A DNA stretch of 64,000 nucleotides from Scilla litardierei (lineage: Eukaryota > Streptophyta > Magnoliopsida > Asparagales > Asparagaceae), in assembly GCA_030789695.1 (NCBI GenBank), contig CM061139.1, forward strand, positions 109,714,837 through 109,778,836, in the 5' to 3' direction. Within the stretch, counting starts at the first letter, position 1. Each line of letters opens with the position of its first letter. The notes under the pieces are model-generated. The model had not been told where the DNA came from. It saw nothing but the letters and a program-made list of their open reading frames with translations, and searched no databases. A program made the position numbers and the translations under genes. This document shows, one piece after another, positions 24,820-55,975 of the stretch.

Positions 24820-27031
24820 GCTCTTATACCAATGTATGGAAATACTGTTAGGGTTATAAACAATTTAGAAATATGTGGAAGACTAAAAAATCAAAAAAAT
24901 TCTAAACATAACAATAAAAGCCAAGAACAAGTGCAAAATATGAATTAGTGCTGAATATAAATACTCACATTTGCATGGATATACTTTAGCGATGCCCGTG
25001 GATCTAAAACTTTTTTGGTGAAGATCCAATGCTCATTCAACCAACCATGCATGCTAAATGTTTCACCTCGATGATGAAGCTCTTTCACGATCCATGAGCT
25101 CTCTTAGAACTCGAACCCAGACCTCTATGCTTACTAATGCAAATGAGGAAGAGAAGAAAAAACTTCTATTTAGAGCAAAAGATTCTCCCTAAAAAAGGTT
25201 CAAATTTTTACTCTTAAAAGAACGTGGATGCTAGGTATTTGATTCTCTGGTTTGAGTTTAAGTGCATTGAGAGAAGAGGAGAGGACACCTTAATTTAGTG
25301 ACAGGGATCATCCAAATTTTGAATTTAAATTAGAACCAAAGATTATCCCTAAACGTGGAATTAGAAGAAGGCTTTTCATTAGGTTTTCTAATCCAAATTG
25401 GATTTTATATTTGAATCCAATTCTTATCCTAAAACAAGGTGGGACTATTAAACTAAAACGCCTAGAAATTCTACAACGCTTAGGATTTCATATTGGATTA
25501 AACTCTATGAATTTGGACTGGTTTTTGATTCAACTCTTGGATTAAACTTGTACCAAAACAATAAACCAAACCCTAATCCTCACATGATGGCCAGTAGTCC
25601 ACTAACAAATCCCGTTAGTCGACAGATGAATGAAACAAAAGCATATTTTGTTTCATGTATAGGTTAATCGACCAAGGCATTGACTAACATGTGTTAATTG
25701 ACTAACTGACAACCCTGAGTCGACTCCTATTTGCCATAAAGCCATTATTTGACTAATGAGTCGACTAATCTTCTGTACGGGTTTGGATTAGATTTTTTCC
25801 TTTCTTCTTTAGCTTCAATATTCGTAACTCTTGATGAACATTTCTCATGCCCATTCGCAACTCCTTAAGATGCATTTTTTCCCCTCTTGAATATGTTTAT
25901 CACAACTCTTTGTGATCCATTCTGTATATCTCATATATATATAGTTTATTCCTTTGTTTTTCATGACGAGCCATCATCGGTATGAGACTCTAAAAGCTCG
26001 ATTCCAATCCAACAATGTCATGATCATACATTACGTTCATGTCACAGGTACAACAGTGATGCTATCTGTGTATGCTGACCATCCATTTTGAAATTGTCAT
26101 TTGACCAAATTTGGCCAGTCGGTGTGAGACTAGGATCTCATCTGACCAAATTTTTCCAGTCAGTGACAGCAATCGTGCAGTTCGGTCCCTTCATCAAAAT
26201 TATGTCACTAAGGTGTATAAGGTACATAAGCTGTCAAACCCTAATAACACATTAAACTTGAGTCATACATGCAATTCCATAGTTTGAGGTGGGATGAAAC
26301 TCGTTACTCTTAAGAAGTTTATCCATTCCACTATGGTCAGGGATTTACTATGCATCAATTGGCTCCTTGTGACACTAACATCCCAAACATGAGGAGACGA
26401 ATCTCTTCTAGACCGTCGCTCTCTTCGCTGGCTTTGGTATATACCCAGCGAGTACCTATGCAAAAATTACATTTGTCGTTGGTGAGTAAAAGCCAAAGTG
26501 TAGCCTCTCACATGCAAGGTCCTTAGCGCGTTTCAGGTCAAATGGATTATGCTGCAACAACTGCCACCTGAGAGCTTCTATTGATAGTCAGAGTATGATT
26601 CCAGTATAGAAGCTTCTCTTGGAGTCGTTCTTTAAACTTGTTTTATAACAAGCATATGTGCATTGTCTCACGATATCCTCGCATCGAGTGCTTATGAGAC
26701 TAGCCACTACGATCACTATGATAGAGATCAATGCACATTGGTCTATCCGGAATATCAATGTCCCGTGTTCGTATTCTTTTAACCAGGAACATTTAGAATT
26801 TGTGCGTAAACAGATCGATTGAGTCTCATTATCATGATTTGATCATGATCCCAATGTCCTCACACATTTCCAAGCACTTTAGACATGAAATAACAACATA
26901 ACAACATACGTGCTCAACTGTATTAATAAATAACGTAGATAAAGAATTACCAAATATGATACTATTATTTTGAACAAGATATTTTAGAATTACAATAATT
27001 GGTTAATGTAAGTGCATACATTCCCCCAACA
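24820..27031 (-). mobile_element. Old copia-type LTR X with primer site
   Basis: 24,846 TGTTAGGG to 27,031 CCCCCAACA gives a 2,186-bp LTR with inverted TGTT/AACA ends. On the minus strand it is followed 14 bp later by TGGTATAAGAGC (24,820-24,831), a two-base variant of the plant iMet primer site, so it is the 5' LTR of a minus-strand element. The part 26,050-27,031 aligns loosely with 30,745-31,871 in element D. No matching target duplication is visible. The 66-codon frame at 26,263 is not a gene. Confidence 0.65.
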
Positions 27032-29508: not shown

Positions 29509-30729
29509 TGTAGGGTTTTCTGGGACCCTTAGGGCACAAAAACTCTATGCTCGTCCTAAGTCGGATGGAACATAGACAGAAATAGCAGCGGAAAAAATTA
29601 ACATGTTAATCTAATTAACAATTAACCCTAAGGTCCAAGACACTAATCCAAGATCTATGCCGACTTGGGATGGATCTTACCATCCCAAGAAGGATCTAGC
29701 CTACTGCGATTAAATTAAACTAATGCTTAAACACATACCCGGAATCTCAACCCTGGAGCAGGCGAGATGTTCCACACCGTCTTCTGAGCCACTCCCATCC
29801 CACGCCGAGCCGCTCCTTGAACCGCTCCCCGAACCGCTCCTCGAACCGCTCCGCATCCCGAGGCGATCAATCCCGTGTCGCCGAGCCAACCACGCACTGA
29901 AGAAAGTTTCACGCGAGTGAAACCTCCGCCTCGATTTAGGATCTGAATCCGAACTCCTTTGCGGCTTTGCTAGAGCCCTCAGGAGCAAGGTAGAAATTTA
30001 TAGAGAGAGGAGAAATATTAATTTAGCTTAGATCCGAGCGTGCTCCAACATTTACGAGAGCCGCTCAGATCTAGAGCTTGGGACGAGTTTTAGAGGAAGG
30101 GGGCAGACCCCTATTTATATAGGCGGCTGACCCCTCCCCTCTACTCAATTTCCGATGTGGGACTAAAGTTGGAGTTAATTAATTCAATTTAGTTTGCCTT
30201 TCACAAAGGCTAAACTTCCGTGAATTTTAACTCCCTGACCGTTGAGCTTCAATGTTGGTACAACCTACCAAATCGAAGAGGGTTCAACGGTAAACGCGTA
30301 GGAAAAAACGGCTCGTCAATCCGAGTCCGTTTGACCCTTCAAACAATTGTCCAAAGTTAGCCAAAAGTCATGCTTCTCTCAGAAACGTAGCCGTCAAGAA
30401 AATACTAGGTTTCAAAAAACCCTAACCAGAAAATTCGGGCTTGGTGGGCCTCCATTTTCGCTGGTTTCAGCCCAACAGTTTGGGCTGACTTGTTTTGCTA
30501 CAACTTGTGCATTTGGACTCCGTTTTTGACGCGGTTTGAACCTGCGTTTAGAGCGGGACGATCCCGTCATCTAGGTAACCTTTTCAATGCGTTTATTTAA
30601 TTAAATATAGTCTTAAAACAATTTAAGACACATTTAATCTCTTTTGCATCATATGCAAATTAGTCCCTATCTAGGCTTAAATTATCATTTGCATCAAATA
30701 CAAATGATCCGAGTGCATATTCCTCTACA
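29509..30729 (-). repeat. 3' LTR of element D
   Basis: 1,221 bp. Contains a perfect 10-bp hairpin (29,664-29,689), a GTTTCAC-GCGA-GTGAAAC hairpin (~29,905-29,922), a GAACCGCTCC minisatellite (~29,815-29,855) and a minus-strand TATATAAATAG (~30,112-30,122). Confidence 0.88.
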
Positions 30730-31912
30730 TCTCCCACTTGCACTCAGGATCATTTATCCCGAATGCAGGAGATGATTGCAAATATCTTTTGCAATATTTT
30801 ATCCCTTGCATCAAATGCAAATTATTCTCCCTAACTAATTTCTACCTATTACTAGACGAAGGTCACACTCTGTGTGAGACCCTACAGCCTGACCCTTACA
30901 ACAGGTTGGGCTCGAAGCCCTATACGGTAGTGACCACGAGCAGTGGTTGCCGTCCCTGCTTCAGGAATCATCATTATGTGGTTGACTCATTGACATGAGT
31001 ATTGTCGGGACCACCCTGACTGTTTCCGTGATGAATTCCGCAGTTATAGTCTCTTCGTCTAAGCTATGTCGTATAGATCAAGTCTAGGGTACGGTCAAAC
31101 TGTCAACCCCAAATAACTTGACTCCGGTTAGTTTCTATCGATCTTTTAGTCAAAAATGTTGGACTTCTTCCAACATACTCTGGCTAGAGTTTTTACTAAA
31201 GACCGAACTAACCCTACGACGCTAACTCCCATTGACCGGGAGAGACGAATCCTCTCTTGGTCATTACTCTCCTCATATGCTGCAAGTGTCACCCAATCAA
31301 AGACCTTTCGACAGGCCTTGCGTCGAAGCTAGGTCATTTGATCTAAGTGGCACCATTCACGCACAGGTTCGTCAAAATGACCTCAAGTCAAAAGACCAAC
31401 TAGCCTATCATCACTCAGAGTCATCATTGACAGATTGGTCAATATAACCATATGATAACTCTTGTGGATCGTTCAGTGAACTCATTCTCTAATGAGCACA
31501 TGTGTCTCGTCTACGACTTCGCTAAGTCAAGCGATCATGAGATCATCGCTACCGCTAAACGGTGAAGACTAAGACACAATGGTCTATCCGATGTTTCGAT
31601 ATCCTTGTCTCGAAACATCTACGACCACGAACCCTTTTAGACTTATGCTACAGACGGTCAAACATTTCTCCATGATCGAGATACTCATCTCGATACATGT
31701 TTGACCTTGCATAAAGTCTCAGGACTTTACCTAAGTTAATATCTAATGTTAACTACATTACAACATAACTTTAGATAAATTATTACCAAACAGCTTACTG
31801 TTATTTCGAACAAGATGTTTGTGCTATTCACACATGAAGATAGATAGCCTCGAGGGTATCATCTCTCAACATCTCCCACTTGTACTTAGGCCCATTTATC
31901 TCGATATCTTAT
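30730..31912 (-). repeat. Internal 3' segment of D with duplicated purine tract
   Basis: TCTCCCACTTG occurs at 30,730-30,740 and again at 31,872-31,882. Both copies are followed by related 30-bp sequence, and the second is preceded by CTCAACA, which looks like another LTR start (TGTTGAG on the minus strand). The segment between them aligns loosely with the inner part of LTR X. It contains strong hairpins, for example 31,640-31,718. Confidence 0.65.
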
Positions 31913-31978
31913 ACCGTTTTTACACATAAGTTTTTCCTGACTTCATGTGATAGAGCCTTCGTGAGTGGATCTGCTAAA
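31913..31978 (-). pseudogene. RNase H C-terminus remnant in element D
   Basis: On the minus strand the sequence reads LADPLTKALSHEVRKNLCV, matching the plant copia RNase H tail (xADPLTKxL). It lies just upstream, on the same strand, of the second purine tract, as in an ordinary copia element. Nothing upstream of it reads as pol. This is all that remains of coding sequence in the element. Confidence 0.7.
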
Positions 31979-31979
31979 A

Positions 31980-34790
31980 CCGTCTACACTATAGACTTAA
32001 GGGGTTTCTATGTTCATGTTAGACCAACCATTTGAATCTCATTCAAATAATTCACTTGGTCGTTCGGAATCTATAATAATTTTATTTACTTGGATCTTAT
32101 CCAGTTCATCGTACCTTACGATAATCATTAGTTAATGGTCATTTCAAATGGCTCATTTCTATTTCTGATAAAGTGTCAAACCATTTGATAACTTTGTCAA
32201 AATAAATGTTCTATCCCTTTGATGTCTCGCATGTAATTTATATGCTCCCACTGACCTTGAAAACTTTCTGGTTAATTCATATAAGTTGGTCCGTCTAAAT
32301 CATATTTAGAAAAACGAACTTATAAGTGAATGTTCCAATTTTCATGGTCAACTTTGAGCGTTTTACATCGAGCGTGGTCCGAATAGATCTGTGCATATCT
32401 GCTGGCGAGACTGTTTCAACATAATCCATTTTATAGGAATTAGGATGAAAACTGTTCTCGACCAACATGATTGCACTTCACTATTTTTCTTTCTGCACAA
32501 ATCTTTAAACTTAAAGATTTACTTGTAGAAAGTGAGGAAAACATTTTCCTTGGGCACGTAAACTAAATTCCAAAATTTATTTGCGCACACGGACCTATTC
32601 TGATTGCATCAAATTTTAAATCGGAGTACCTACTCCGAATTTTCATCCTAGAAGTTGGCTAAGTCATCATCAATTATGATGTCTAACTCGACTCTTCGTC
32701 TCACGAGATTCGAGTAATTATACAACTTCTTAATGATTGATTTTATGAATATCTTATTGATAATGTCCTCACAGGACATTATCAAAACCTAGGCATTACT
32801 ATCTGGGACTTAACCCAGAAGGAGGACTTAACTCAGAGTCACTTACAATGGATCAAACCAAGTCTAACTAAGTGTGATTCATACCTTTTAACACACTGAC
32901 GTATTAACAGACTTGACCTGAGAGAAAATCATATTTTCTTTTAATTACGCAAGATTTAATGTAGCTAAGTATTTGACCATTCGATCTAATCGAATCAGTT
33001 TTAATACTTTAGTCATTTCGTTCTTTATTTTATCAGACTTGTGTTTCATCAAGAACACATGTCTTAATAAAATATACGAATAACTTAATTTGGTTAATCT
33101 AGACTCGGGCACATCAGTATGTATCAGACTGAGTTCGACAACTCATTCTCCCACTGTCTTACAGATGGGTTTCGGCCATTCTATCTACGAGGATAAGACT
33201 CACAAGTGTCTGCAGACTTCATAATACGAGAGGTCGGACCCCTCTTTATGTGACTTGTGAAGCTTAGTCTCTCGATACGGCCTAGTCTATATTTCCATAC
33301 AAGTCTGCTACTATCTTGTGTATTTATATATATTAACATTTAATATATATATATTATCGTTATACATAAATTACTAACGCAAAACATTGCTTCAGATGCG
33401 AGGTGACGACATTCGTCAAATTGTGTTAGACGTCTTTTGTATAACAATAATTATAAAATCGTGACATCAAAATATGTCACATTTTCATTTCCTCCTACTT
33501 ATGCCTTTACTAATGATAAATTAAACTATTAAACTCGATTGACTTTCCGGAGTGCCTTCTTCCTTTTTCTAAATCACATTTAGATATAAATAGCCCAACA
33601 TAAATAAATAGCTATGCAAGCATCTCATGTATCCAAACGCCTGAGTGTTGCAATCTTGAGTGTAGCTCAAGAAGTTGCTTGTCTCAAGATCCGGTTGGGA
33701 TACATAGTCTTGCACCACTCATGCACTCGTATTCGACTCAAACGGTTTGATCGAATTCTCGAACTTTACGGATCAGAATTGTTTGTCCATACAACCTTGA
33801 GAGTAGCTCGACAAGTTGTAGGGAGAAACATACTTCGAATATCCTATATGTTCAAGCTGCCTCATATAGAGACGAGTGACATGTAGCGTGAATTTATTTG
33901 TTAGACCCGGAACTTAATGAAATCATATTTCTTAAGTCTGTTCTTTAGAAGGTCATTTCAATGTCAACGAGAATATAGTTTAATCCTATCAATTAGAATT
34001 TAACTTGATTTTCAATTAATCAACCTATTTGACCAATTAACTAATTCCATTAAAAAATTATATTTCGATTCCTTCGGTAAACATAGTCTTGCCCTAGTTT
34101 AGCATATGTTTAATATTAAATATAGGTAGATTGGCATTCATCTATCTATATCCTCCCACTATTTTTACGATCGTTTTAAAGCTTAATAACGAACGATTTA
34201 ATCGAATTAAAATATTTAAAATTTAGTGAAAGAGGGATCCAATCATCCTGAACCTCACAATCTTGAGGAGACTCAACAAGTTGATTGGTTCCATGATTGG
34301 TAGACTAACTCTTAGTCAATCACATCACATGTGACTCCCTATCGTTTTTACCCACAGTCACTTATGATCTTGAGGAGACTCAACAAATCATAATGACTGG
34401 TCTAGTCAGACCCTTGATTTCGTGTCCAGATTTGACTTAGATCGATGCTCGAGGAGACCTGACGTATCGATTTGGGTCAAGTCTAGACTACATCACATGT
34501 ATGTTGGAGTTTGTTCCTTAAAGATAAACATGTCATAGCTTGAGGAGACTCAACAACTATAATTGTCTTCTTTGAGTTACCAAGCTCCAAAATCAAGGAG
34601 GGATACGGATTAGTCTTTAATAAGATTTATAACGCATTGACTAGATATAGTCCAGGGTGTCATACAATCATGATTCGCGACATTGCGGTCCAGCGGACAC
34701 AGCCAGGGAATTGACTAAGCCAGGATCACTATCCCTTAAAGGGTGATCCAGAACTCTTAGCCAAGCACATTGACTGGATCATGGTCCATT
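31980..34790. repeat. Chain of adjacent hairpins in element D
   Basis: Consecutive inverted repeats with short loops cover most of this stretch. Examples: 32,030-32,048 (8 bp, loop CTC), 32,649-32,730 (outer AGAAGTTG/CAACTTCT enclosing two hairpins), 32,757-32,785 (13 bp perfect, loop CAC), 33,174-33,282, 33,359-33,445, 33,626-33,707, 33,781-33,825, 34,235-34,300, 34,352-34,400, 34,426-34,486, 34,504-34,590 and ~34,690-34,770. Six between 33.6 and 34.6 kb share an apex like CTTGAG-GAGA-CTCAA with different but complementary arms. No protein frame is supported. Confidence 0.75.
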
Positions 34791-35234
34791 GAATGAAGCT
34801 TGTCATTTTTGTATGTATGCCATAGACTAAACAGCTTTTATTAACAACTAATTAATCCTATCAACTAGTTGCATCCTTAAATTCAAAAATTTTAGGATTT
34901 GTTTAATAACTTTTATTAAGACCTTATCAACTATAAGATTCACGTGTTATCCTAATCGTTATTAGGATTTTAATAAACTTTATTAACAACGCTAAAAGCG
35001 AAGTCCTTTAATGAGAATTAATTATAACAATTAGAATTAAGATTCATTAAAAGGACTACCCTAATCAGGAATTAGGTCTTGGAGTGTTGTTAATGTTTTA
35101 TTAAAACATAGCATGTCATTAAAATTCAAGTAATAATTTTTAATCATCTTTAATGGCTAACCTAAAGGGTTGTCTTGTGTTATCAAATAAGGGACAAGAT
35201 TATGCATAGCCATTAACATAAGATTACACTAATT

Positions 35235-35715
35235 TTATCGCATAAAATAAAAGTGTACAACTATTTAACAATTTAAATAGAACAATGTCTATCACATAAA
35301 CAATTTTAGCATGCAAACATAAATTTAACATTTAAATTTAAAATATGATTTTAAAATATTTTATTTTTATCTCATAAAAACTTGTTTTTAAAATCACAAA
35401 TTTGCATGCTACTTTAAAAAATTTATCGCATAAAAATTTTAACATGTAAAATCAGTTTTAAAATATCTCATAAAATTAAAAACATCATTTTAAAAAAAAC
35501 TTCCATGCTTAAAAAATTTATCATATAAAATTTTTAGTCACTTTAAACTTATCGCATAAATTTTAAAAGATTTAAAATAAGTTTTAAAAATTATCACATA
35601 TATTTTTAAACGTCATTTAAAATTTTCCATATTCAAAAATTTATCACATAGATTTTTAAACATCAAAAACATTTTTAAAATTTATCTCATAACTTTAAAA
35701 ACATTTTTAAAAGTA
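35235..35715. repeat. AT-rich dispersed motif array in element D
   Basis: The word TTTATC(G/A)CATAAA and close variants recurs about ten times, separated by TTTTAAAA-rich spacers of 20-50 bp. No ORF. Lies near the 5' end of the element on the minus strand, close to a second iMet-like primer motif (35,773-35,784). Confidence 0.6.
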
Positions 35716-36015
35716 TTTAAAAGCATTTCATATGTTTAATAAAATCGCAGGCTAGATCGTAACACAAACCTGGCTCTGATACCACTGTAGGGTATCACTC
35801 TGATATCATTGCGACGCTGTTAAGGCCCATCATCCATGGCACCCTAGACCCGTCACAAGATACCTCAGAAACTTGTTTTACGGCATGCCTCTCGACAATG
35901 CCCAACCCATTATAAGATCACCATCTTATCGGGACTTGGTACGGTAAGAGCGATTACTTCGGGTCGGCTCATAACCCGAGAACCCGTACTCAAGCTCAAC
36001 AAGCTCTGATGCCAC

Positions 36016-37240
36016 TGTAGGGTTTTCTGGGACCCTTAGGGCACAAAAACTCTATGCCCGTCCCAAGTCGGACGGAACATAGACAGAAATAGCAGCGGAA
36101 AAAATTAACATGTTAATCTAATTAACATTTACCCTAAGGTCCAAGACCCTAATCCAAGATCTATGCCGACTTGGGATGGGTCTGACCATCCCAAGAAGGA
36201 TCTAGCCTACTGCGATTAAATTAAACTAATGCTTAATTAAACACATACCCGGAATCTCAACCCTGGAGCAGGCGAGATGTTCCGCACCGTCTTCCGAGCC
36301 GCTCCCGTCCCACGCCGAGCCGCTCCTCGAACCGTTCCCCGAACCGCTCCTCGAACCGCTCCGCATCCCGAGGCGATCAATCCCATGTCGCCGAGCCAAC
36401 CACGCGCCGAAGAAAGTTTCACGCGAGTGAAACCTCCGCCTAGATTTCGGATCTGAATCCGAACTCCTTTGCGGCTTTGCTAGAGCCCTCAGGAGCAAGG
36501 CAGAAATTTATAGGGAGAGGAGAAATATTAATTTAGCTTAGATCCGAGCGTGCTCCAACATTTACGAGAGCCGCTCAGATCTAGAGCTTGGGACGAGTTA
36601 TGAGGAAGGGGGCAGACCTCTATTTATAGAGGCGGCTGACCTCTCCCCTTTACTCCACAACCGAGGTGGGACTATTAATTTGGAGTTAATTAAATCAAGT
36701 TAGTTTGCCTTTCACAAAGGGCAAACTTCCTCGAATTTTAACTCCCTCACCGTTGAGCTTCAATGTTGGTACAACCTACCAAATCGAAGAGGGTTCAACG
36801 GTAAACGCGTAGGAAAAAACGGCTCGTCAATCCGAGTCCGTTTGACCCTTCAAACAACTGTCCAAAGTTAGCCAAAAGTCATGGTTCTCTCAGAAACGTA
36901 GCCGTCAAGAAAATACTAGGTTTCAAAAAACCCTAACCAGAAAATTCGGGCTTGGTGGGCCTCCATTTTCGCTGGTTTCAGCCCAACAGTTTGGGCTGAC
37001 TTGTTTTGGCTACAACTTGTGCATTTGGACTCCGTTTTTGACGCGGTTTGAACCTGCGTTTAGAGCGGGACGATCCCGTCATCTAGATAACATTTTCAAC
37101 GCGTTTATTTAATTAAATATAGTCTTAAACAATTTAAGACACATTTAATCTCTTTTGCATCATATGCAAATTAGTCCCTATCTAGGCTTAAATTATCATT
37201 TGCATCAAATACAAATGATCCGAGGGCATATTCCTCTACA
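36016..37240 (-). repeat. 5' LTR of element D
   Basis: 1,225 bp, same landmarks as the 3' LTR, with the hairpin at 36,170-36,195. Ends CTCTACA followed by the target duplication TAGCA. Confidence 0.88.
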
Positions 37241-37886
37241 TAGCAGCCTTAGGACGATTCCTGTCTAAGTCAACCGAGAGGTCATTGCCTTTTCTCAAGG
37301 TGTTGAGGAATGCGATAGCCTCTGAATCGAATGGTAAGAGAGCCATCAAATGAGATGCAGACTGCAAAAAATCCTTCTTCGAGCTAAAGGAGTACCATCG
37401 CACCCTACCGCTATTGACGAAGCCAGACAAGGATGACCAACTCATCCTCTACTTGGTCGCCACTGAGGAGGCCGTAATCTCGGTGCTCGTCAAAGATGAC
37501 ACAGGGGTACACTGGCTCATCTACTACGTCAGTTAGGTTCTCCGAGGTATGGAGGTCAACTACACGAGGATCAAAAAGATGGCTTTCGCACTGGTCCAAT
37601 CTGCAAGGAGGCTATAGCCATATTTTCAAGCGCACACCATCTTGGTCCTCATCGACACTCCCCTAGAACAGACCCTGAAGAGGCTCGATCGTTCAGGTAG
37701 AATGACAAAGTGGGGGGTCAAACTAAGCAAGTTAGACATTCAGTTCAAATCAAGGATTGCCATCAAAGGACATGCTCTCGCTGACTTTATCGTCAAACTC
37801 ACCTATGACGATGGCCCTCCCAGAAGAGGTATATGCAACTGGCTCATTCCCTGAGGCTGCCCCCTCGTCCTTGACAAGCGTCAGCC
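37241..37886 (+). pseudogene. Tat element H: RT thumb and first RNase H
   Basis: Continues the frame interrupted at 29,508: ALGRFLSKSTERSLPFLKVL, then FFELKEYHRTLPLLTKPDKD, LILYLVATEEAVISVLVKDD, MEVNYTRIKKMAFALVQSAR and ending IKGHALADFIVKLT at ~37,805. Three in-frame stops. It is the connection plus the gypsy-type RNase H of the Tat polyprotein. Broken off at ~37,887 by the family E LTR. Confidence 0.85.
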
Positions 37887-38364: not shown

Positions 38365-39782
38365 TGATTAGGGTTCAATATTGTATATTTTACCCCTCAT
38401 TAGATGGCATTTTATGCATAATTTGTATTCATTTTGGCTCCGATACGCACATTTTGATGATATCACTTAATATTGGAGCTTACCGTTTTTATATGCTTAA
38501 ATCATAATTTTTCCATCTTATTAGCATCTTCATCTTGGTCTTCTATTATTTTTCAGTTGAATTTCGTGAAGTCCCGATTCCAACGCATATTTTTCCAGAA
38601 TTTTTGGAGGTCGGAGCAATTTACTACATTTTTAGAAGACAATGTGACGGTGTTGAAAATTTCTGGGCTAGAAAGTCTGCTTTTCCCCTCTTGTTCAGAA
38701 TTCTGCTATCATTCCAGTATATATTTCGGCCTCCTGATATTTTTCAGTGATAGTACACTTTGTTACGGTTCCATCACCGCCTGGAACGCGTCATTCCGAG
38801 GTCGGATGATTTTTCTAGAATTTTTGCAATACAGGGTGACGGTGCTGAAATTTCTGCAGATTTGGGCATTAGTTGCGGGTTTGGACGCGGATCCGACCCG
38901 TTTGGGCTGTTTTCAAACCCGAAATTCTGAGTCAATTTCTTGGGCTTTCCTCCACTCTTTTTCCCTCATTCCTTCTTCCTCATTCTTCATCTTAGGGTTA
39001 GGGTTTTGGTGGAGCAACAAAGAAGCACGGAGGAGCATTTGGTTTGGGTTTTGTTCTTCATTGGAGATATTGGTGAACTCTTTCCATCTCCTTGTGTATT
39101 TTGATTTAGTGAATTGTAATGATAATGGATGATGTTTTTAGAAGTAAAAATCTCTCTTTTCTTGTTATAATGAGCCAGATCTTCTTCTTGTGTGGTTGTA
39201 TGGTGATTTGTGTTTGCTTTGGCTTTGGTTTTCAATCTTGCATGTTTTAATGATTATGTGGTAGAATTGATGAGATATAATTTGAATTAGGGATCCTAGT
39301 AGGTGTCCCTAGAGTGGAGTTTGCCTAGTGGTACCATTCTTGTATGCTTGGTTGTTTATTATCTCAATTTTTCATACCATACTTTCATTGCACACCAAGT
39401 GTTTGATAAAATGCCACATCCACCGATTGCGTTTTCCTTAGCCGGAAAGACAATTGAGTTATCCTCGGATTGAACCCATATGCTTAGCAACCTCATTCCC
39501 ACACACCACACAAGCTTCCTCGCCTATTTGCCTCTCCGATTCTCGAACCCTAGGATGTTGGTTTGGTAGATGGTTTCACACACATTTTCACACACTTCCA
39601 CCCCGTTAGTGTAGTTGGTTGTTAACCGCCGTTACCCTTCCTACATCAATTGAATTTGTGATTGCAAAACGACTTGTCCCCGTGATCCGACCCGGTCTCA
39701 CCGGATATAAATTTATTACTTGACGTCCTCCTACACTTGGGAGTAGCGCTCAAGCATCACATACTTGAGATGCGTTCAAGCA
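38365..39782 (+). repeat. LTR 1 of the tandem element
   Basis: 1,418 bp, TGATTAGGGTTC to GCGTTCAAGCA. The 219-codon and 82-codon open frames inside it recur in all three LTRs but show no domain. Confidence 0.9.
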
Positions 39783-39784
39783 AT

Positions 39785-39802
39785 TGGCGCCGTTGCCGGG
39801 GA
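39785..39802 (+). promoter_or_regulatory. Primer binding site (Asp tRNA), copy 1
   Basis: TGGCGCCGTTGCCGGGGA, complementary to the 3' end of plant tRNA-Asp and typical of Athila-type gypsy elements. The second copy is at 43,690-43,707. Confidence 0.9.
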
Positions 39803-39990
39803 CAACGGTTTTTGCATTTACATTTTCGATTGATTTTGAAAATCTTGGCGAGATACTTCCCACTATTAGTGTGAGTCTTTTCTGATTCTTTATTTCTCAC
39901 TTTTTGATTTGAGATTTCTTTATTTTTCACTTTTTGAGTCCTTTGCTATCTTTATTTTCATTTTCTTTTATAAAAATTCAAAAAAAAGTT

Positions 39991-41094
39991 ATGGACTTTA
40001 ACGGCATAAATTCTTTGTATGATGCACTTTCATTTTCTTTGCACAGGACCACTTCTTTGAAGCTCAAAATTGCCGGCTTTGCTAAAATTGACGGTGAATC
40101 CTTCTATCAAGCTTGGAGGAGGTTCATGGATTTATTAAGCGGCTGTCCACATCATGGATTCACGATAGACCATCTTTTCCAGTTTTTCTACGAGGGGTTG
40201 CAGGAGGAGATGCAGGACTACATGGCGATGTTGGACGATGGATCTCTATTTGACATGTCACCTGTGGATGCTTGGGAGTACTTGGAGTCCTTGGAGGATA
40301 TGTCACGACCATTGGATGAGACTTCAGGGAGTGATCTATTAGCGCCATATCACGATACCATTGGAGTATCCCTTGACCAAGGAGAGCAAATCATGGACAC
40401 ACCCTTGCAACCCTTGGACGAGGAACTTCAATTGCTTATTCAGACACATGAGGCTCAATCCCGATATTTTCTACGGAGCATGGAGACTCGAAGCCAGTAT
40501 ATCCATGAGATCATTTCCAGTCTCGCATTGCTTGCCTCTTGCTTGGGAGAAGGTAATCAAACCACTCAAAAACTTTTATTATCTGATTTGGATTCATCTT
40601 CTCTTGTAGGAGATTTGTGTGAAGATGTAGAGGACGATCGTGAAATTTTGTATGGAGTGGAGGAGGAGACTAGTAGGGCCACGAGCTCATCAATCATTTT
40701 GGTGGAGTCCGAACCATGCTCTTCCCCAATCTTGTCCCAAAATCCATCATTCCTCTCCCCTGTGGGCATGCATCATATGGAGATGGACGCAATCACTTTA
40801 GGGAGTTTTCGTCAACTTGATTTAAATTCTTTATCTTATGTTGACGACTATATTTGGATCACTTTTGTTGAAAGGCAATGGTGTCGGCTTTGGATTAACA
40901 CATCCTCTCTCCCGCTGGGCACGATTGGAAATTTTATGGAGGGAGCACTTGTTGGTGTGTTGCTAGGGTCCAAAGTGATTTGTGGAGGGACGACGCTTAC
41001 AGAGGAGCGTAAAGATCTAATTGAGCAACTTTCCTCACCGTTATACATCCGAGATCCTCCTTTTGACCCCGGTGATCTCCTTCTAGTAGTATAG
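39991..41094 (+). CDS. Gag-like protein with novel C-terminal half, copy 1
   Basis: Intact 367-aa ORF, and the first ATG after the primer site is chosen. Residues ~31-105 match the second half of Athila-type capsid: GESFYQAWRRFMDLLSGCPH, then HLFQFFYEGLQEEMQDYMAM and SPVDAWEYLESLEDMS (compare ETLYEAWERFKDLQHQCPHH in element F). The usual N-terminal capsid part and zinc knuckle are missing. The remaining ~260 residues are acidic and Ser/Leu-rich, ending YIRDPPFDPGDLLLVV, and match nothing I recognise. It may act in packaging or may be a relic. It is the only ORF of the internal region. Confidence 0.72.
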   Translation: MDFNGINSLYDALSFSLHRTTSLKLKIAGFAKIDGESFYQAWRRFMDLLSGCPHHGFTIDHLFQFFYEGLQEEMQDYMAMLDDGSLFDMSPVDAWEYLESLEDMSRPLDETSGSDLLAPYHDTIGVSLDQGEQIMDTPLQPLDEELQLLIQTHEAQSRYFLRSMETRSQYIHEIISSLALLASCLGEGNQTTQKLLLSDLDSSSLVGDLCEDVEDDREILYGVEEETSRATSSSIILVESEPCSSPILSQNPSFLSPVGMHHMEMDAITLGSFRQLDLNSLSYVDDYIWITFVERQWCRLWINTSSLPLGTIGNFMEGALVGVLLGSKVICGGTTLTEERKDLIEQLSSPLYIRDPPFDPGDLLLVV

Positions 41095-41188
41095 AAATTT
41101 TAATTTAATGCACTTTCTATGCTTTTTAGGATAGTTTTATTTCAATAAACCTCTACTTTTTCAACATTGAGGACAATGTTTGTCTTTA

Positions 41189-41205
41189 GTTGGGGGGAGA
41201 GTAGT
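41189..41205 (+). promoter_or_regulatory. Internal purine tract downstream of the gag-like ORF
   Basis: TTAGTTGGGGGGAGAG, preceded by ACATTGAGGACAATG, a context seen at the end of pol in many Athila-type elements. Repeated at ~45,094. The true 3' tract (TTGTGGGGTG or TTGGGGGGTG) abuts LTR 2 and LTR 3 about 1.07 kb later. Confidence 0.5.
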
Positions 41206-42268
41206 CGGTGGTTTTAGGATGTTTAGTTAGTTGTTTTCGTTTTAATTTTTTTTTGTTGGCGACATCCATTTTGACATCACCAATATCTTGCGAGCATATA
41301 ATTGACCCTCCTTGCTCATTTGCTAGCTTTGTGCTTAGTCCCTTATATGCTTCATATTCATGCATACATTTGGATTCAAATCTTATGTTCAAACTCCTAA
41401 ATAGTGATTGTCATACATTTTATTGCTTTTTCTTCATGGGATCAACTTTAATATGCCATTCATAAAAATAGTGCAAATTCGATGAATTTTGTCTTCGATG
41501 TGGGTTGGATTAGTTTTGTGCAAACTTTGTGATGTACGAGTTGGATTAAGTCATTAGTGTAATTTGGTGTTCAATTTGATGGAATTTGGCTTTGGATATA
41601 CGCTTGGTTTATGCTTGAGGAGTGGTTGATTGGTGTGTTAAAAAAAGAAAGAAAAGAGAAAGAAAAGAAAAGAAAAAGAAAAAGAAAAAGAAAAAAAAAG
41701 AATAAGTGCATCGTTCTTCTAGTTTTGTCAAGTAGCCGGGTCCTCATGAAACATTGGGGATTCGTGTCGAAAGATAGGATTTAGGGGAGTGCACGAAAGA
41801 AAAATAAGTGAATCTTAGGTGATTCGAGTTACTAGGTCCGCGGGGTCCTTTTTGGCCCAATGCCCCAAAATCTTCTGATTTGGGAGTCATTGACCGAACC
41901 CTCGTTACATGGGTCATTCTAAGTTTCATATTAAAAAACATGAATAAACATTATCCACATATCAAACTTCCATGAATTAAGAAAGCTAAGTGTTATTTTT
42001 GGCCAAGTTCTTGAAGATTGTAATACTATGACACGCTTATGTTTTAATCTCAATGAATGCAAACTTTGCTTGTACTTTGTTGGTTTGAGCCATATTGGAG
42101 TTTTGGTCTTGGATTTGCTCTATTTTATGAGTTGGTATATTGGAATTGAGTTTATATTGAAAAAATTTCATGTGCCATGAATATTGTGCAGTTTGATGTG
42201 TGTTATATTGTGAATCCGAATATATCGCTTGTTTTGCTAGGGACTAGCAAAAAGCTAGTTGTGGGGTG
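41206..42268 (+). repeat. 3' non-coding part of internal region 1
   Basis: About 1 kb without a supported gene. It holds an AG-rich microsatellite (GAAAA/GAAAGA, 41,640-41,703) and an ACTAGC-AAAAA-GCTAGT hairpin (~42,243-42,259) just before the purine tract. The same layout lies at 45,111-46,173, with the microsatellite at ~45,545-45,608. Confidence 0.75.
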
Positions 42269-43687
42269 TGATTAGGGTTCAATATTGTATATTTTACCCC
42301 TCATTAGATGGCATTTTATGCATAATTTGTATTCATTTTGGCTCCGATACGCGCATTTTGATGATATCACTTAATATTGGAGCTTACCGTTTTTATATGC
42401 TTAAATCATAATTTTTCCAGCTTATTAGCATCTTCATCTTGGTCTTTTATTATTTTTCAGTTGAATTTCGTGAAGTCCCGATTCCAACGCATATTTTTCC
42501 AGAATTTTTGGAGGTCGGAGCAATTTACTACATTTTTAAGAAGACAATGTGACTGTGCTGAAAATTTCTGGGCTAGAAAGTCTGCTTTTCCCCTCTTGTG
42601 CAGGATTCTGCTATCGTTCCAGTATATATTTCGGCCTCCTGATATTTTTCAGTGATAGTACACTTTGTTACGGTTCCATCGCCGCCTGGAACGCGTCATT
42701 CCGAGGTTGGATGATTTTTCTAGAATTTTTGCAAGACAGGGTGACGGTGCTGAAATTTCTGCAGATTTGGGCATTAGTTGCAGGTTTGGGCGCGGATCCG
42801 ACCCGTTTGGGCTGTTTTCAGACCCGAAATTCTGAGTCAATTTCTTGGGCTTTCCTCCCCTCTTTTTCCCTCATTCCTTCTTCCTCATTCTTCATCTTAG
42901 GGTTAGGGTTTTAGTGGAGCAACAAAGAAGCACGGAGGAGCATTTGGTTTGGGTTTTGTTCTTCATTGGAGATATTGGTGAACTCTTTCCATCTCCTTGT
43001 GTATTTTGATTTAGTGAATTGTAATGATAATGGATGATGTTTTTAGAAGTAAAAATCTCTCTTTTCTTGTTATAATGAGCTAGATCTTCTTCTTGTGTGG
43101 TTGTATGGTGATTTGTGTTTGCTTTGGCTTTGGTTTTCAATCTTGCATGTTTTAATGATTATGTGGTAGAATTGATGAGATATAATTTGAATTAGGGATC
43201 CTAGTAGGTGTCCCTAGAGTGGAGTTTGTCTAGTGGTACCATTCTTGTATGCTTGGTTGTTTATTATCTCAATTTTTCATACCCTACTTTCATTGCACAC
43301 CAAGTGTTCGATAAAATGCCACATCCACCGATTGCGTTTTCCTTAGCCGGAAAGACAATTGAGTTATCCTCAAATTGAACCCATATGCTTAGCAACCTCA
43401 TTCCCACACACCACACAAGCTTCCTCGCCTATTTGCCTCTCCGATTCTCGAACCCTAGGATGTTGGTTTGGTAGATGGTTTCACACACATTTTCACACAC
43501 TTCCACCCCGTTAGTGTAGTTGGTTGTTAACCGCCGTTACCCTTCCTACATCAATTGAATTTGTGATTGCAAAACGACTTGTCCCCGTGATCCGACCCGG
43601 TCTCACCGGATATAAATTTATTACTTGATGTCCTCCTACACTTGGGAGTAGCGCTCAAGCATCAAATACTTGAGACGCGTTCAAGCA
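42269..43687 (+). repeat. LTR 2 (middle) of the tandem element
   Basis: 1,419 bp. Preceded by a purine tract and followed by a primer site, so it serves both as 3' LTR of unit 1 and 5' LTR of unit 2. It has one extra A relative to LTRs 1 and 3 (~42,539). Confidence 0.9.
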
Positions 43688-43895
43688 ATTGGCGCCGTTG
43701 CCGGGGACAACGGTTTTTGCATTTACATTTTCGATTGATTTTGAAAATCTTGGCGAGATACTTCCCACTATTAGTGTGAGTCTTTTCTGATTCTTTATTT
43801 CTCACTTTTTGATTTGAGATTTCTTTATTTTTCACTTTTTGAGTCCTTTGCTATCTTTATTTTCATTTTCTTTTATAAAAATTCAAAAAAAAGTT

Positions 43896-44999
43896 ATGGA
43901 CTTTAACGGCATAAATTCTTTGTATGATGCACTTTCATTTTCTTTGCACAGGACCACTTCTTTGAAGCTCAAAATTGCCGGCTTTGCTAAAATTGACGGT
44001 GAATCCTTCTATCAAGCTTGGAGGAGGTTCATGGATTTATTAAGCGGCTGTCCACATCATGGATTCACGATAGACCATCTTTTCCAGTTTTTCTACGAGG
44101 GGTTGCAGGAGGAGATGCAGGACTACATGGCGATGTTGGATGATGGAGCTCTATTTGACATGTCACCTGTGGATGCTTGGGGGTACTTGGAGTCCTTGGA
44201 GGATATGTCACGACCATTGGATGGGACTTCAGGGAGTGATCTATTAGCGACATATCACGATATCATTAGAGTATCCCTTGACCAAGGAGAGCAAATCGTG
44301 GACACACCCTTGCAACCCTTGGACGAGGAACTTCAATTGCTTATTCAGACACATGAGGCTCAATCCCGATATTTTCTACGGAGCATGGAGACTCGAAGCC
44401 AGTATATCCATGAGATCATTTCCAGTCTCGCATTGCTTGCCTCTTGCTTGGGAGAAGGTAATCAAACCACTCAAAAACTTTTATTATCTGATTTGGATTC
44501 ATCTTCTCTTGTAGGAGATTTGTGTGAAGATGTAGAGGACGATCGTGAAATTTTGGATGGAGTGAAGGAGGAGACTAGTATGGCCACGAGCTCATCGATC
44601 ATTTTGGTGAAGTCCGAACCATGCTCTTCCCCAATCTTGTCCCAAAATCCATCATTCCTCTCACCTGTGGGCATGCATCATATGGAGATGGACGCAATCA
44701 CTTTAGGGAGTTTTCGTCAACTTGATTTAAATTCTTTATCTTATGTTGACGACTATATTTGGATCACTTTTGTTGAAAGGCAACGGTGTCGGCTTTGGAT
44801 TAACACATCCTCTCTCTCGCTGGGCACGATTGGAAGTTTTATGGAGGGAGCACTTGTTGGTGTGTTGCTAGGGTCCAAAGTGATTTGTGGAGGGAAGACG
44901 CTTGCAGAGGAGCGTAAAGATCTAATTGAGCAACTTTCCTCACCGTTATACATCCGAGATCCTCCTTTTGACCCCGGTGATCTCCTTCTAGTAGTATAG
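43896..44999 (+). CDS. Gag-like protein with novel C-terminal half, copy 2
   Basis: Same length as copy 1 and also fully open. By eye 16 residues differ between the copies (for example Ser/Ala in the DDG(S/A)LFDM motif, Glu/Gly in AW(E/G)YLES, Trp/Arg in ERQ(W/R)CRLW), against about three silent differences. This pattern gives no sign of purifying selection since duplication. The gag-like segment and the unknown acidic C-terminal region are both kept. Function as in copy 1 is unproven. Confidence 0.72.
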   Translation: MDFNGINSLYDALSFSLHRTTSLKLKIAGFAKIDGESFYQAWRRFMDLLSGCPHHGFTIDHLFQFFYEGLQEEMQDYMAMLDDGALFDMSPVDAWGYLESLEDMSRPLDGTSGSDLLATYHDIIRVSLDQGEQIVDTPLQPLDEELQLLIQTHEAQSRYFLRSMETRSQYIHEIISSLALLASCLGEGNQTTQKLLLSDLDSSSLVGDLCEDVEDDREILDGVKEETSMATSSSIILVKSEPCSSPILSQNPSFLSPVGMHHMEMDAITLGSFRQLDLNSLSYVDDYIWITFVERQRCRLWINTSSLSLGTIGSFMEGALVGVLLGSKVICGGKTLAEERKDLIEQLSSPLYIRDPPFDPGDLLLVV

Positions 45000-46173
45000 A
45001 AATTTTAATTTAATGCACTTTCTATGCTTTTTAGGATAGTTTTATTTCAATAAACCTCTACTTTTTCAACATTGAGGACAATGTTTGTCTTTAGTTGGGG
45101 GGAGAGTAGTCGGTGGTTTTAGGATGTTTAGTTAGTTGTTTTCGTTTTAATTTTTTTTTGTTGGCGACATCCATTTTGACATCACCAATATCTTGCGAGC
45201 ATATAATTGACCCTCCTTGCTCATTTGCTAGCTTTGTGCTTAGTCCCTTATATGCTTCATATTCATGCATACATTTGGATTCAAATCTTATGTTCAAACT
45301 CTTAAATAGTGATTTTCATACATTTTATTGCTTTTTCTTCATGGGATCAACTTTAATATGCCATTCATAAAAATAGTGCAAATTCGATGAATTTTGTCTT
45401 CGATGTGGGTTGGATTAGTTTTGTGCAAACTTTGTGATGTACGAGTTGGATTAAGTCATTAGTGTAATTTGGTGTTCAATTTGATGGAATTTGGCTTTGG
45501 ATATACGCTTGGTTTATGCTTGAGGAGTGGTTGATTGGTGTGTTAAAAAAAGAAAGAAAAGAGAAAGAAAAGAAAAGAAAAAGAAAAAGAAAAAGAAAAA
45601 AAAAGAATAAGTGCATCGTTCTTCTAGTTTTGTCAAGTAGCCGGGTCCTCATGAAACATTGGGGATTCGTGTCGAAAGATAGGATTTAGGGGAGTGCACG
45701 AAAGAAAAATAAGTGAATCTTAGGTGATTCGAGTTACTAGGTCCGCGGGGTCCTTTTTGGCCCAATGCCCCAAAATCTTCTAATTTGGGAGTCATTGACC
45801 GAACCCTCGTTACATGGGTCATTCTAAGTTTCATATTAAAAAACATGAATAAACATTATCCACATATCAAACTTCCATGAATTAAGAAAGCTAAGTGTTA
45901 TTTTTGGCCAAGTTCTTGAAGATTGTAATACTATGACACGCTTATGTTTTAATCTCAATGAATGCAAACTTTGCTTGTACTTTGTTGGTTTGAGCCATAT
46001 TGGAGTTTTGGTCTTGGATTTGCTCTATTTTATGAGTTGGTATATTGGAATTGAGTTTATATTGAAAAAATTTCATGTGCCATGAATATTGTGCAGTTTG
46101 ATGTGTGCTATATTGTGAATCCGAATATATCGCTTGTTTTGCTAGGGACTAGCAAAAAGCTAGTTGGGGGGTG

Positions 46174-47591
46174 TGATTAGGGTTCAATATTGTATATTTT
46201 ATCCCTCATTAGATGGCATTTTATGCATAATTTGTATTCATTTTGGCTCCGATACGCGCATTTTGATGATATCACTTAATATTGGAGCTTACCGTTTTTA
46301 TATGCTTAAAACATAATTTTTCCAGCTTATTAGCATCTTCATCTTGGTCTTCTATTATTTTTCAGTTGAATTTCGTGAAGTCCCGATTCCAACGCATATT
46401 TTTCCAGAATTTTTGGAGGTCGGAGCAATTTACTACATTTTTAGAAGACAATGTGACTGTGCTGAAAATTTCTGGGCTAGAAAGTCTGCTTTTCCCCTCT
46501 TGTGCAGGATTCTGCTATCATTCCAGTATATATTTCGGCCTCCTGATATTTTTCAGTGATAGTACACTTTGTTACGGTTCCATCGCCGCCTGGAACACGT
46601 CATTCCGAGGTCGGATGATTTTTCTAGAATTTTTGCAAGACAGGGTGACGGTGCTGAAATTTCTGCAGATTTGGGCATTAGTTGCAGGTTTGGGCGCGGA
46701 TCCGACCCGTTTGGGCTGTTTTCAGACCCGAAATTCTGAGTCAATTTCTTGGGCTTTCCTCCCCTCTTTTTCCCTCATTCCTTCTTCCTCATTCTTCATC
46801 TTAGGGTTAGGGTTTTGGTGGAGCAACAAAGAAGCACGGAGGAGCATTTGGTTTGGGTTTTGTTCTTCATTGGAGATATTGGTGAACTCTTTCCATCTCC
46901 TTGTGTATTTTGATTTAGTGAATTGTAATGATAATGGATGATGTTTTTAGAAGTAAAAATCTCTCTTTTCTTGTTATAATGAGCTAGATCTTCTTCTTGT
47001 GTGGTTGTATGGTGATTTGTGTTTGCTTTGGCTTTGGTTTTCAATCTTGCATGTTTTAATGATTATGTGGTAGAATTGATGAGATATAATTTGAATTAGG
47101 GATCCTAGTAGGTGTCCCTAGAGTGGAGTTTGCCTAGTGGTACCATTCTTGTGTGCTTGGTTGTTTATTATCTCAATTTTTCATACCCTACTTTCATTGC
47201 ACACCAAGTGTTCGATAAAATGCCACATCCACCGATTGCGTTTTCCTTAGCCGGAAAGACAATTGAGTTATCCTCGGATTGAACCCATATGCTTAGCAAC
47301 CTCATTCCCACACACCACACAAGCTTCCTCGCCTATTTGCCTCTCCGATTCTCGAACCCTAGGATGTTGGTTTGGTAGATGGTTTCACACACATTTTCAC
47401 ACACTTCAACCCCGTTAGTGTAGTTGGTTGTTAACCGCCGTTACCCTTCCTACATCAATTGAATTTGTGATTGTAAAACGACTTGTCCCTGTGATCCGAC
47501 CCGGTCTCACCGGATATAAATTTATTACTTGACGTCCTCCTACACTTGGGAGTAGCGCTCAAGCATCACATACTTGAGACGCGTTCAAGCA
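46174..47591 (+). repeat. LTR 3 of the tandem element
   Basis: 1,418 bp. Ends GCGTTCAAGCA and is followed directly by CTCGACTGAG of LTR E, giving the right target duplication. Confidence 0.9.
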
Positions 47592-49200: not shown

Positions 49201-50570
49201 GACGCCTTGTCGAAGCTTGCATCGTCCTCCCACGCAGGAGTCGGTCGGACCATGTATGTATAACATCTACCACATCCCTGCAAACTGGCACAAGAACTGC
49301 CGAACCTCGATCAAAAGGCCACATGGATGGATCCAATAATCCGTTACCTAAACAGCGGGGAAAAATCGACCAACCCAGTGGACGCACGAAAGCATTAGCA
49401 GAAGGCCTACCAATTCGTCTTGCTAGATGGTTCATTGTTCAAAATATGATGGACCAGGTATGACATCTTCCACTATCTTAAATGCTTAGTCCAGCAGGAA
49501 GCGCACTACGTGATCCAGGAGATCCACGAGGACGACTGCATGAATCATTATGGAGAGAAATCCATAGCCCTGAAGGCCGTAAGACATGGGTATTTTTGGC
49601 CAGCAATATTCAAAGATGCCGTCGAATACGTTCGATGGTGCTCGACCTGCCAAAAGTTCTCAAAGATCAGCTCAGCTCCACCAACTGATCGGATCCCCAT
49701 CGTCAGTCCGGTCCCTTTCGCCAAATGGGGACTGGACCTCCTTGGACTATTCAGGCCAGCGAGTGGGAAACGGAAATATCTAATAATGGCTATCGACTAT
49801 TTCATCAAGTGGATCGAAGCGGTGCCTCTATCCCGAATCACCTGGAAGGAGGCTCGAAGCTTCATCTGAAAGTCTGTCGTCTGTCATTTTGGCATCCCAC
49901 AATCTATAGTAACAGACAACAGGACACAATTCAACATCACGGCTTTATAGACTTCAATGCAGAGTTGAAGATCAAGCTGCACTTTGCCTCCGTCGCCCAT
50001 CCCCAGGCGAACGGCTTGGCTGAGTCAGCCGACAAATCCATCCTCGGGCCCGTGCGGAAGAGAATAATTGGGTTCGAGGGAACTTGGTCGGACGAAATAA
50101 CCGGAATATTATGGTCATATAGAACGACCCACAAAACCTCAATGGGCAAAGCACCATTCATGTTGGCCTACGGATGCGAGGCTGTCATCCTTGTCGAGGT
50201 CAATGAGCGACCGCTTCGTCTCAAATACTTGGACGAAGAAAGAAACTCAGAGGGCCTCGAGCTCAACCTACAACTAGTGGATGAGGTCTGTGAACAGGCG
50301 TTAGTGACCATCATCGAACAAAAGGGGCGCATGGCCCGCTACTTCAACTCGAAAGTCCATGAACGCAGCTTTCGCATGGGCGACTTGGTGCTGCGTAAGG
50401 CCGCTTTCACTCCCGAGATCCTCAAGCAGGGGAAGCTCGCTGCAAAATGGGAAGGACCCTACACAGTGATCGATATACTCGGTCCTGCCACCTATCGACT
50501 CGCTACTTTGTATGATAGGGAACTTCATCATCCTTGGAACGTGGAACATCTGCAAAAGTATTATCAATGA
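49201..50570 (+). pseudogene. Tat element H: integrase
   Basis: Zinc domain: EIHEDDCMNHYGEKSIALKA and YVRWCSTCQKFSKIS (HHCC present, 49,515-49,670). Core: FAKWGLDLLG (D), IPQSIVTDNRTQF (D; Gly of DNGTQF lost) and, after a frameshift at ~49,925, HPQANGLAESADKSIL (E). The C-terminal part runs KAPFMLAYGCEAVILVEVNE, KWEGPYTVIDILGPATYRL and WNVEHLQKYYQ at 50,570. Stops at ~49,398, ~49,446 and ~49,867. It is the last gene of H, and no chromodomain follows, as expected for Tat. Confidence 0.88.
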
Positions 50571-50663
50571 TTGTACTAAAAGGGTAAAATGACCGTTCAT
50601 TTTTTATCCCATGCATGTTCACTATGAATGCAAAGTAGATCGTTCTTCGACATCAGTCGAAAT

Positions 50664-55833: not shown

Positions 55834-55975
55834 TGAGGGCGGTCTGATCCCTCCGAGGAACACGGAGCACCAATCGAAGTGTAACCAGAAGTTGTAAGTT
55901 TCGAATGAAATATCGTCCTCCCTTTGCATTTTCAAATCTCGCTATCTCCGCCTGAAAATTTCAGCTTAAGACACA

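Follow-up and report, generated by a model that had tools for sequence, protein, structure and literature searches.

What keeps the two arms of a hairpin complementary when hairpins that share an apex are built on different arms? The question is raised by a run of six hairpins in element D, which lies within a 64-kb window, the whole stretch of DNA analyzed here (Table 1). The DNA is probably that of a plant, judging by the retroelements of the window and a plant snoRNA match. Two direct repeats of ~1.2 kb (29,509-30,730 and 36,016-37,241 in a BLAST self-comparison, 95.6% identical) run from TGTAGGG to CTACA, and a 5-bp target-site duplication, TAGCA, is read on both outer flanks; D therefore spans 29,509-37,240. 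Read along the minus strand, D consists of LTR, GTGGCATCAGAGC, interior, AAGTGGGAGA, and LTR, and the left LTR has a TATA box on the same strand (CTATATAAATAG; position 30111 on the plus strand), so retrotransposition has the minus strand as its sense strand. In the right LTR, one base of the TATA stretch is altered (CTATTTATAGAGG on the plus strand, position 36620), and the priming site GTGGCATCAGAGC is what we take to be the complement of the initiator-Met tRNA with one base off. With LTRs bounded by TG...CA, a target-site duplication, a primer binding site, and a polypurine tract all present, D is a complete LTR retrotransposon. Divergence between its LTRs is 0.037 (K2P) over 1,215 sites, the left LTR being taken 3 bases short at its right end in this count, as it is in the wobble count, the D-to-E pair count, and the comparison of the two LTRs described below.

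The long interior of D has no detectable gag or pol coding capacity. There are 110 to 154 stops per frame, and the longest stop-free run is 92 codons on the plus strand and 65 on the minus strand. Ten of the 21 interior stretches of at least 48 codons were compared with Pfam, with no match in those 10, and the 92-codon stretch has no homologue at an E value of 0.001. D thus offers no coding sequence in which the protease-integrase-RT-RNaseH order of Copia pol could be read.

Table 1. Positions of element D, its hairpins, and related LTRs within the 64-kb window
Feature	Position	Strand	Description
Element D	29,509-37,240	minus (sense)	~7.7 kb, LTR to LTR; TAGCA duplication outside
Left LTR of D (3' LTR in sense direction)	29509-30729	minus	On plus strand, TGTAGGG start and CTACA end
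Polypurine tract of D	30730-30739	minus	AAGTGGGAGA; adjoins left LTR
D interior	30740-36002		Non-coding, ~5.3 kb; hairpins cover ~60%
D interior part homologous to LTR E	30860-31871		62.9% over 383 bp, E 1e-15
Hairpin H1	33617-33712		Apex 33656-33670, TTGAG-TGTAG-CTCAA then GAA
Hairpin H2	33758-33856		Apex 33797-33811, TTGAG-AGTAG-CTCGA then CAA
Hairpin H3	34221-34320		Apex 34263-34276, TTGAG-GAGA-CTCAA then CAA
Hairpin H4	34349-34404		Apex 34370-34383, TTGAG-GAGA-CTCAA, exact
Hairpin H5	34420-34490		Apex 34449-34462, TCGAG-GAGA-CCTGA, degraded
Hairpin H6	34501-34593		Apex 34540-34553, TTGAG-GAGA-CTCAA, exact
Primer binding site of D	36003-36015	minus	GTGGCATCAGAGC; directly inside right LTR
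Right LTR of D (5' LTR in sense direction)	36016-37240	minus	From self-comparison
LTR hairpin, column 102	36106-36131		Loop CTA, identical in LTR X
LTR hairpin, column 167	36150-36218		Inner stem CTTGGGATGG-GTCTGA-CCATCCCAAG
LTR X	3918-4658		Relative of D's LTR, hairpin-rich; 63.9% over 797 aligned columns
LTR E	24834-27019		TGTATG...CATACA, bounds by eye; relative of part of D interior; not hairpin-rich

A first-pass annotation of this DNA had described at least six hairpins, six of them by position, with an apex close to CTTGAG-GAGA-CTCAA and mutually unrelated arms. All six are present, although our finder and the annotation place their limits from a few bases to tens of bases apart, and every arm pair that it quoted is found in the sequence. 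The common apex holds in part: TTGAG-GAGA-CTCAA is exact in three of the six, two have a five-base loop, and one is degraded. What the six share is better written as a module, consisting of a variable stem, C, TTGAG, either GAGA or NGTAG, CTCAA, CAA (GAA in H1), and the variable stem again. It includes a 1-by-3 internal loop (C against CAA) just below the apex, which had gone unmentioned. The register of the module is kept in five of the hairpins, with four or five of the five nearest arm pairs formed, and in H5 it is shifted by one and degraded. As RNA, the six hairpins fold with z scores of -1.55 to -6.29 relative to 200 shuffles when both strands are considered. The weakest is H3 (34,221-34,320), with z scores of -1.55 on the minus strand and -1.64 on the plus strand (14 and 12 of the 200 shuffles, respectively, fold as well); the strongest of the twelve strand-wise folds (six hairpins, two strands) is H5 on the plus strand, which forms a nearly continuous long helix through G.U pairs (MFE -36.1), with a z score of -6.3 versus -4.0 on the minus strand.

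Each left arm pairs with its own right arm, as had been proposed. When the left and right arms are assigned to each other in all 720 ways, with the apex excluded, the true assignment is the best at arm lengths of 20, 30, and 40 bases; when the arms are restricted to 7 bases each, 3 of the 720 assignments do as well under one score and 6 under another. The arms are largely unrelated between hairpins (mean ungapped identity 0.33-0.41), but CAA-Y/GTTG stands next to the apex in three of the six (at 33,650, 33,791, and 34,257), and calling them unrelated was therefore a slight overstatement. The left arms of H1 and H3 are also alike, at 76% over 21 bases with part of the apex included.

An alignment of the six hairpins (29 columns) provides a measure of compensation. 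In it, 86.7% of cells are paired, versus 74.0% in shuffled alignments, and the covariation score is 0.427 versus 0.185, neither value being reached in any of 500 shuffles. Both members have changed in five of ten pairs, a figure that 7 of 500 shuffles reach; four of the five belong to the arm stem. The shuffle control is near-degenerate for two- and three-sequence alignments (two of the three sequences being nearly alike), and we therefore place weight on slid frames, per-helix counts, and the six-sequence alignment. A covariance model built from the six recovers these same six, as it must by construction, and no other convincing member on either strand of the 64 kb; the best further match, at 7,475, has an E value of 0.025.

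The six hairpins lie in an element that is rich in hairpins throughout. Using a strand-symmetric finder that scores only Watson-Crick pairs, with cut-offs of 20 and 26 and local dinucleotide shuffles as the control, we found 38 hairpins in the D interior at a score of at least 20 (7.2 per kb, 60% coverage), versus 2.7 to 3.2 per kb (20 to 27% coverage) in four regions outside D. The richness extends into the LTRs of D (4.9 and 5.7 per kb at the same score), beyond the interval that had been annotated, and foldbacks of 80-100 bases with stems of at least 20 pairs are common in D. The hairpins exceed what chance would give in dinucleotide shuffles: at a score of at least 26, the interval 33,174-34,790 contains 8 hairpins (shuffled, 1.8 +/- 1.1, maximum 6; n=200), and the D interior contains 28 (shuffled, 7.9 +/- 1.9, maximum 15; n=200). 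When the window is divided into 28 segments (of unequal length, some overlapping; 60 shuffles each), the D interior segments have the highest counts, 11 and 15, and z scores of 4.2 to 5.7 are found for both of them, both D LTRs, and LTR X. Because segments 5,001-7,500 and 49,741-52,240 also score highly (z of 4.7 and 4.8), D tops the window yet is not its only foldable part; the z score for LTR E is -0.6. In a profile of folding energies, the plus-strand mean z reaches its minimum at 30-31 kb (-2.76; minus strand, -2.53), with 61-62 kb not far from it (-2.11 on the plus strand and -2.56 on the minus strand).

The relatives of D within the window can be asked whether pairing has outlasted sequence. 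The D LTR and LTR X have eight hairpins each, found independently, and four of these share the left apex column of the alignment (columns 48, 102, 167, and 546), with right apex columns differing by 0 to 2; two of the four have identical loops. The clearest compensation is at column 167 (36150-36218), where the arms are CTTGGGATGG/CCATCCCAAG in D and CTCGAGTTGG/CCAACTCGAG in LTR X. The inner 12 pairs, two of which lie beyond an A.A/G.A mismatch, comprise 8 unchanged and 4 doubly changed pairs, with none one-sided or broken; the mismatch itself is unchanged and flanked by doubly changed pairs, and all six loop bases are identical. The outer 10 pairs behave differently, with 4 the same and 6 unpaired in X. 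At column 102, the inner 6 pairs before an alignment gap comprise 4 that are the same and 2 doubly changed, with none one-sided. There is no compensation on the alignment at columns 48 and 546 (2 same and 3 one-sided, and 1 same and 1 one-sided, respectively). Over all aligned pairs, 34 are unchanged and 30 differ on one side, 8 contain gaps, and among those changed on both sides 12 of 30 are Watson-Crick and the other 18 do not pair; the covariation signal is thus confined to particular helices.

Covariation between D and LTR E appears only weakly in their alignment. Of 138 aligned pairs, 37 are unchanged and 63 differ on one side, and the doubly changed ones divide into 19 that pair and 19 that do not. 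The 19 of 38 doubly changed pairs that are Watson-Crick modestly exceed one-third (p 0.025), and the proportion is near the 0.39 of shifted frames. Pairs are Watson-Crick in register in 56 of 138 cases, versus 27 to 43 when the frame is slid, although 37 of those 56 are merely unchanged. Hairpins in E are not significantly stronger at 15 D apex positions at any of three tolerances (p 0.07, 0.34, and 0.17); a strong E hairpin lies opposite two of six D hairpins (p 0.039 and 0.009), and the other four give values of 0.37 to 0.94.

The explanation that we tentatively prefer, while rating it somewhat short of probable, is that D is a LARD-like element whose fold is kept by selection on a folded RNA used by the proteins of another element. 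The RNA of D would be recognized, packaged, and copied by proteins of another, autonomous element; since D is non-coding, it would need that element's Gag and reverse transcriptase. RNA would be the selected molecule and mobilization in trans the selected step. The repeated apex would be a binding site offered several times over, with the Gag of the partner as its likeliest ligand, and the arms would do no more than present the apex, so that their letters would be free to change. We suppose that the six hairpins descend from one through duplication and then diverged under a pairing constraint. Selection on structure was one of two possibilities offered in the first-pass annotation; it is supported by compensation, which is found within the set of six and at two hairpins common to the D LTR and LTR X, and only weakly by the D-to-E comparison.

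Several observations sit poorly with selection on an RNA. Among them are the outer pairs of the column-167 hairpin that are unpaired in X, the two shared LTR hairpins without compensation, the modest totals over all D-to-E and all LTR-to-X pairs, and the lack of hairpin richness in LTR E. Across the alignments, stems evolve no more slowly than their surroundings, and apex loops are no more conserved overall, which argues against it: identity between the D LTR and LTR X is 115/215 within stems versus 268/428 outside them and 17/31 in apex loops, and between D and LTR E it is 166/330 within stems versus 256/508 outside them and 24/43 in apex loops. A selected RNA should also have a preferred strand, because G.U pairs on that strand should be favored, and the absence of a preference thus counts against RNA selection. 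By shuffle-corrected z scores, 22 of the 39 hairpins in the D interior fold better on the plus strand (p 0.3), whereas raw energies favor the minus strand (just 10 of 38 are better on the plus strand, p 0.017) and 120-base windows lean toward the plus strand (mean z -1.72 versus -1.25 in 86 windows; p 0.12 on 43 that do not overlap). Individual hairpins lean either way, with 32,148-32,214 favoring the plus strand (z -5.4 versus -1.3 on the minus strand) and 35,642-35,732 the minus strand (z -4.1 versus -0.6 on the plus strand). GT:AC counts are 32:47 in stems, 20:12 in D-to-E pairs, and 9:11 in LTR-to-X pairs (pooled p 0.49). An rRNA control gives 26:16 at all aligned positions and 5:4 to 5:5 inside helices at lower cut-offs; as it has no clear bias either, the wobble counts have little power.

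The other possibility that had been offered, inverted copies written around a fixed apex, is a live rival, although it fits less well and we consider it fairly unlikely. Complementarity would here be a product of mutation, not selection: one arm would be copied from the other when the template is switched (snap-back) in reverse transcription or in DNA synthesis, with the stable apex as the fold-back point. Template switching has been reported to create and maintain hairpins, with GNRA and four-base loops enriched where compensatory changes are instantaneous (PMC8794818, from the available part of that account), and GAGA is a GNRA loop on the plus strand. The lack of strand asymmetry noted above, and stems that drift as fast as the remainder, speak for this process or, at the least, give RNA selection no support. 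The two LTRs of D provide a post-insertion control. With hairpin positions defined on the right LTR, 161 pairs are the same in both LTRs, 15 are changed on one side, and none on both. Among the one-sided cases, 11 are paired in the right LTR (the left having 8 unpaired and 3 G.T), 2 only in the left LTR, and 2 in neither; substitution rates are 0.043 in hairpin columns and 0.034 outside them. As the LTRs were identical at insertion and later changes are one-sided only, pairing has not been restored in the chromosome. Pairing is thus kept or made across rounds of replication, with no sign of stem repair in the chromosome. The control makes it less likely that template switching in host DNA replication has been frequent since D inserted. 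It does not count against template switching by reverse transcriptase and, were the arms written, would point to the reverse-transcription step.

Details of the hairpins themselves argue against writing. Extension from the apex would erase the mismatch beside it, and yet C stands against CAA or GAA in five of the six hairpins, with a shifted form in the sixth. The A.A/G.A mismatch at 36150-36218 is likewise retained between doubly changed pairs, and the apex columns and identical loops common to the D LTR and LTR X point the same way. It is decidedly unlikely, in our estimation, that the fixed tip serves as a seed and that reverse transcription rewrites both arms in each replication cycle, leaving stems matched while their letters drift; if this were true, hairpins would be inherited as shape, not as sequence, in an element without a protein gene.

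A third explanation, which we regard as improbable, is that D transcripts fold into miRNA-like or siRNA-producing stems and are Dicer substrates, whether as a target of defense or as a source of regulatory RNA. The frequency of long foldbacks in D would suit this, as would the nearly continuous plus-strand helix at 34420-34490. A defense target would be expected to be selected against, however, and no Rfam miRNA family reaches its gathering score in the 64-kb window; a mir-31 match in D is at chance level only (18 bits versus 51).

A function at the DNA level appears quite improbable. The inverted repeats would act as cruciforms or as structures in single-stranded DNA, for example in cDNA or in recombination, and the two strands would be equivalent, in keeping with the strand symmetry of folding and with the abundance of short inverted repeats in both LTR X and D. 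Against it, pairing is not maintained after insertion, interrupted stems with asymmetric internal loops make poor cruciforms, and we know of no step in the LTR cycle for which DNA hairpins are needed by the dozen. We hold it to be very improbable that a single hairpin was simply duplicated, in tandem or dispersed, and that the arms pair by chance or because composition is biased: CAA-Y/GTTG in three of the six fits common descent, but the chance part is contradicted by the arm assignments, by an interior hairpin count reached in 0 of 200 shuffles, and by the doubly compensated pairs; the duplication part is retained in the preferred explanation of selection on a folded RNA.

As far as sequence comparison can place it, D would be a LARD-like element with a new feature, the constant-apex hairpin family. 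The D LTR is 1.2 kb and that of the barley element Sukkula is ~4.4 kb, and the conservation of D structure was compared on LTR X and LTR E only. LARDs such as Sukkula, like D, have LTRs and a core domain without protein products, and they are assumed to be mobilized in trans and have a well-conserved RNA secondary structure (PMC7215508); unlike LARDs as described in the available part of that source, D repeats one apex module six times, each time on arms unrelated to the others. TRIMs, including Cassandra, are also non-coding LTR elements with conserved RNA structure, and the Cassandra structure is a super-hairpin of LTR with LTR plus a 5S domain (PMC7215508, available part). These two groups thus already provide non-coding LTR elements in which RNA secondary structure is well conserved. 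TRIMs have short LTRs and hardly any interior; D, by contrast, measures 7.7 kb and has 1.2-kb LTRs, a 5.3-kb interior, and many local hairpins, and the Rfam 5S model has no match in it. Retrozymes are non-autonomous plant retrotransposons around a structured RNA and resemble D in this respect (PMC4918200, available part), although D has no match to the Rfam hammerhead ribozyme, which in retrozymes lies in the LTR, at the gathering score or at E values up to 5.

Parallels outside these groups are looser. In RNA viruses and HBV, packaging signals comprise several stem-loops sharing a loop motif (RGAG for the HBV core), and the binding protein is known there, the likeness of D to them being one of layout alone (PMC7612645, available part). 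By this analogy the array in D could be viewed as a packaging-type layout of repeated stem-loops with a shared motif. Yeast Ty1 is, like D, an LTR element, and it is the one studied most thoroughly; its RNA structures serve packaging and priming, and its heptamer UCUCCUC, which pairs with GAGGAGA for reverse transcription (PMC4974528), also occurs in D, possibly by chance, within the sense-strand apices at 34263-34276, 34370-34383, and 34540-34553. Unlike D, Ty1 has its packaging sequences near the 5' end and most of its interior is dispensable; up to 5 kb can be deleted with no significant effect on transposition in trans (PMC4974528, available part). If Ty1 is a fair guide, such dispensability would count against a packaging role for the D array.

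The first-pass annotation had known of no LTR element built this way, and in the open-licence literature we likewise found no precedent for a repeated constant-apex module, nor any work on covariation in structured LTR elements. A stretch of 1 kb presents one apex module six times, on stems that are nearly unrelated, in an interior most of which folds. D offers a concrete, countable candidate for how non-coding LTR elements get packaged and copied by foreign machinery, and a natural test of compensation, with its two LTRs recording decay after insertion and its relatives recording what survives replication. The 18-base apex matched eight stretches of viral contigs, none with D-like flanks, and the polypurine-tract pattern matched two, one of them (L010) phage-like by its ORFs and the other (L009) having the same local sequence. 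Neither the 19-base pattern conserved between D and E nor the apex-pair pattern matched any viral contig; the apex-pair pattern had no match in the genome-contig collection, and the plasmid collection had no match to D.

We note some further features of D and its surroundings. A scan of both strands of the 64 kb finds the complement of the polypurine-tract core, CTCCCACT, at five places only, all on the plus strand in D (30731, 31873, 32245, 33148, and 34153); these copies may be additional sites of priming or may be left over from LTR junctions that were captured. A second polypurine-like junction lies at 31865-31904 (85% like 30723-30762), and a second priming site plus LTR start lies at 35773-35793 (95% like 36003-36023). 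These second junctions, together with the likeness of 30860-31871 to LTR E, suggest that D may have captured most of another element. Outside D, 38365-47591 has the repeat structure of a tandem LTR array, LTR-interior-LTR-interior-LTR with a period of 3904, in which the LTRs (~1418 bp) are 98.4-98.7% identical and the interior has a gag match just below the Pfam cut-off. Both units of this array have a match to the plant snoRNA snoR71 (Rfam, 51.9 bits; gathering score 40), at 40060-40160 and 43965-44065, antisense within the gag-like ORF. Simpler tandem arrays are present at 50664-51159 (49-bp units) and 55966-58556 (~216-bp units).
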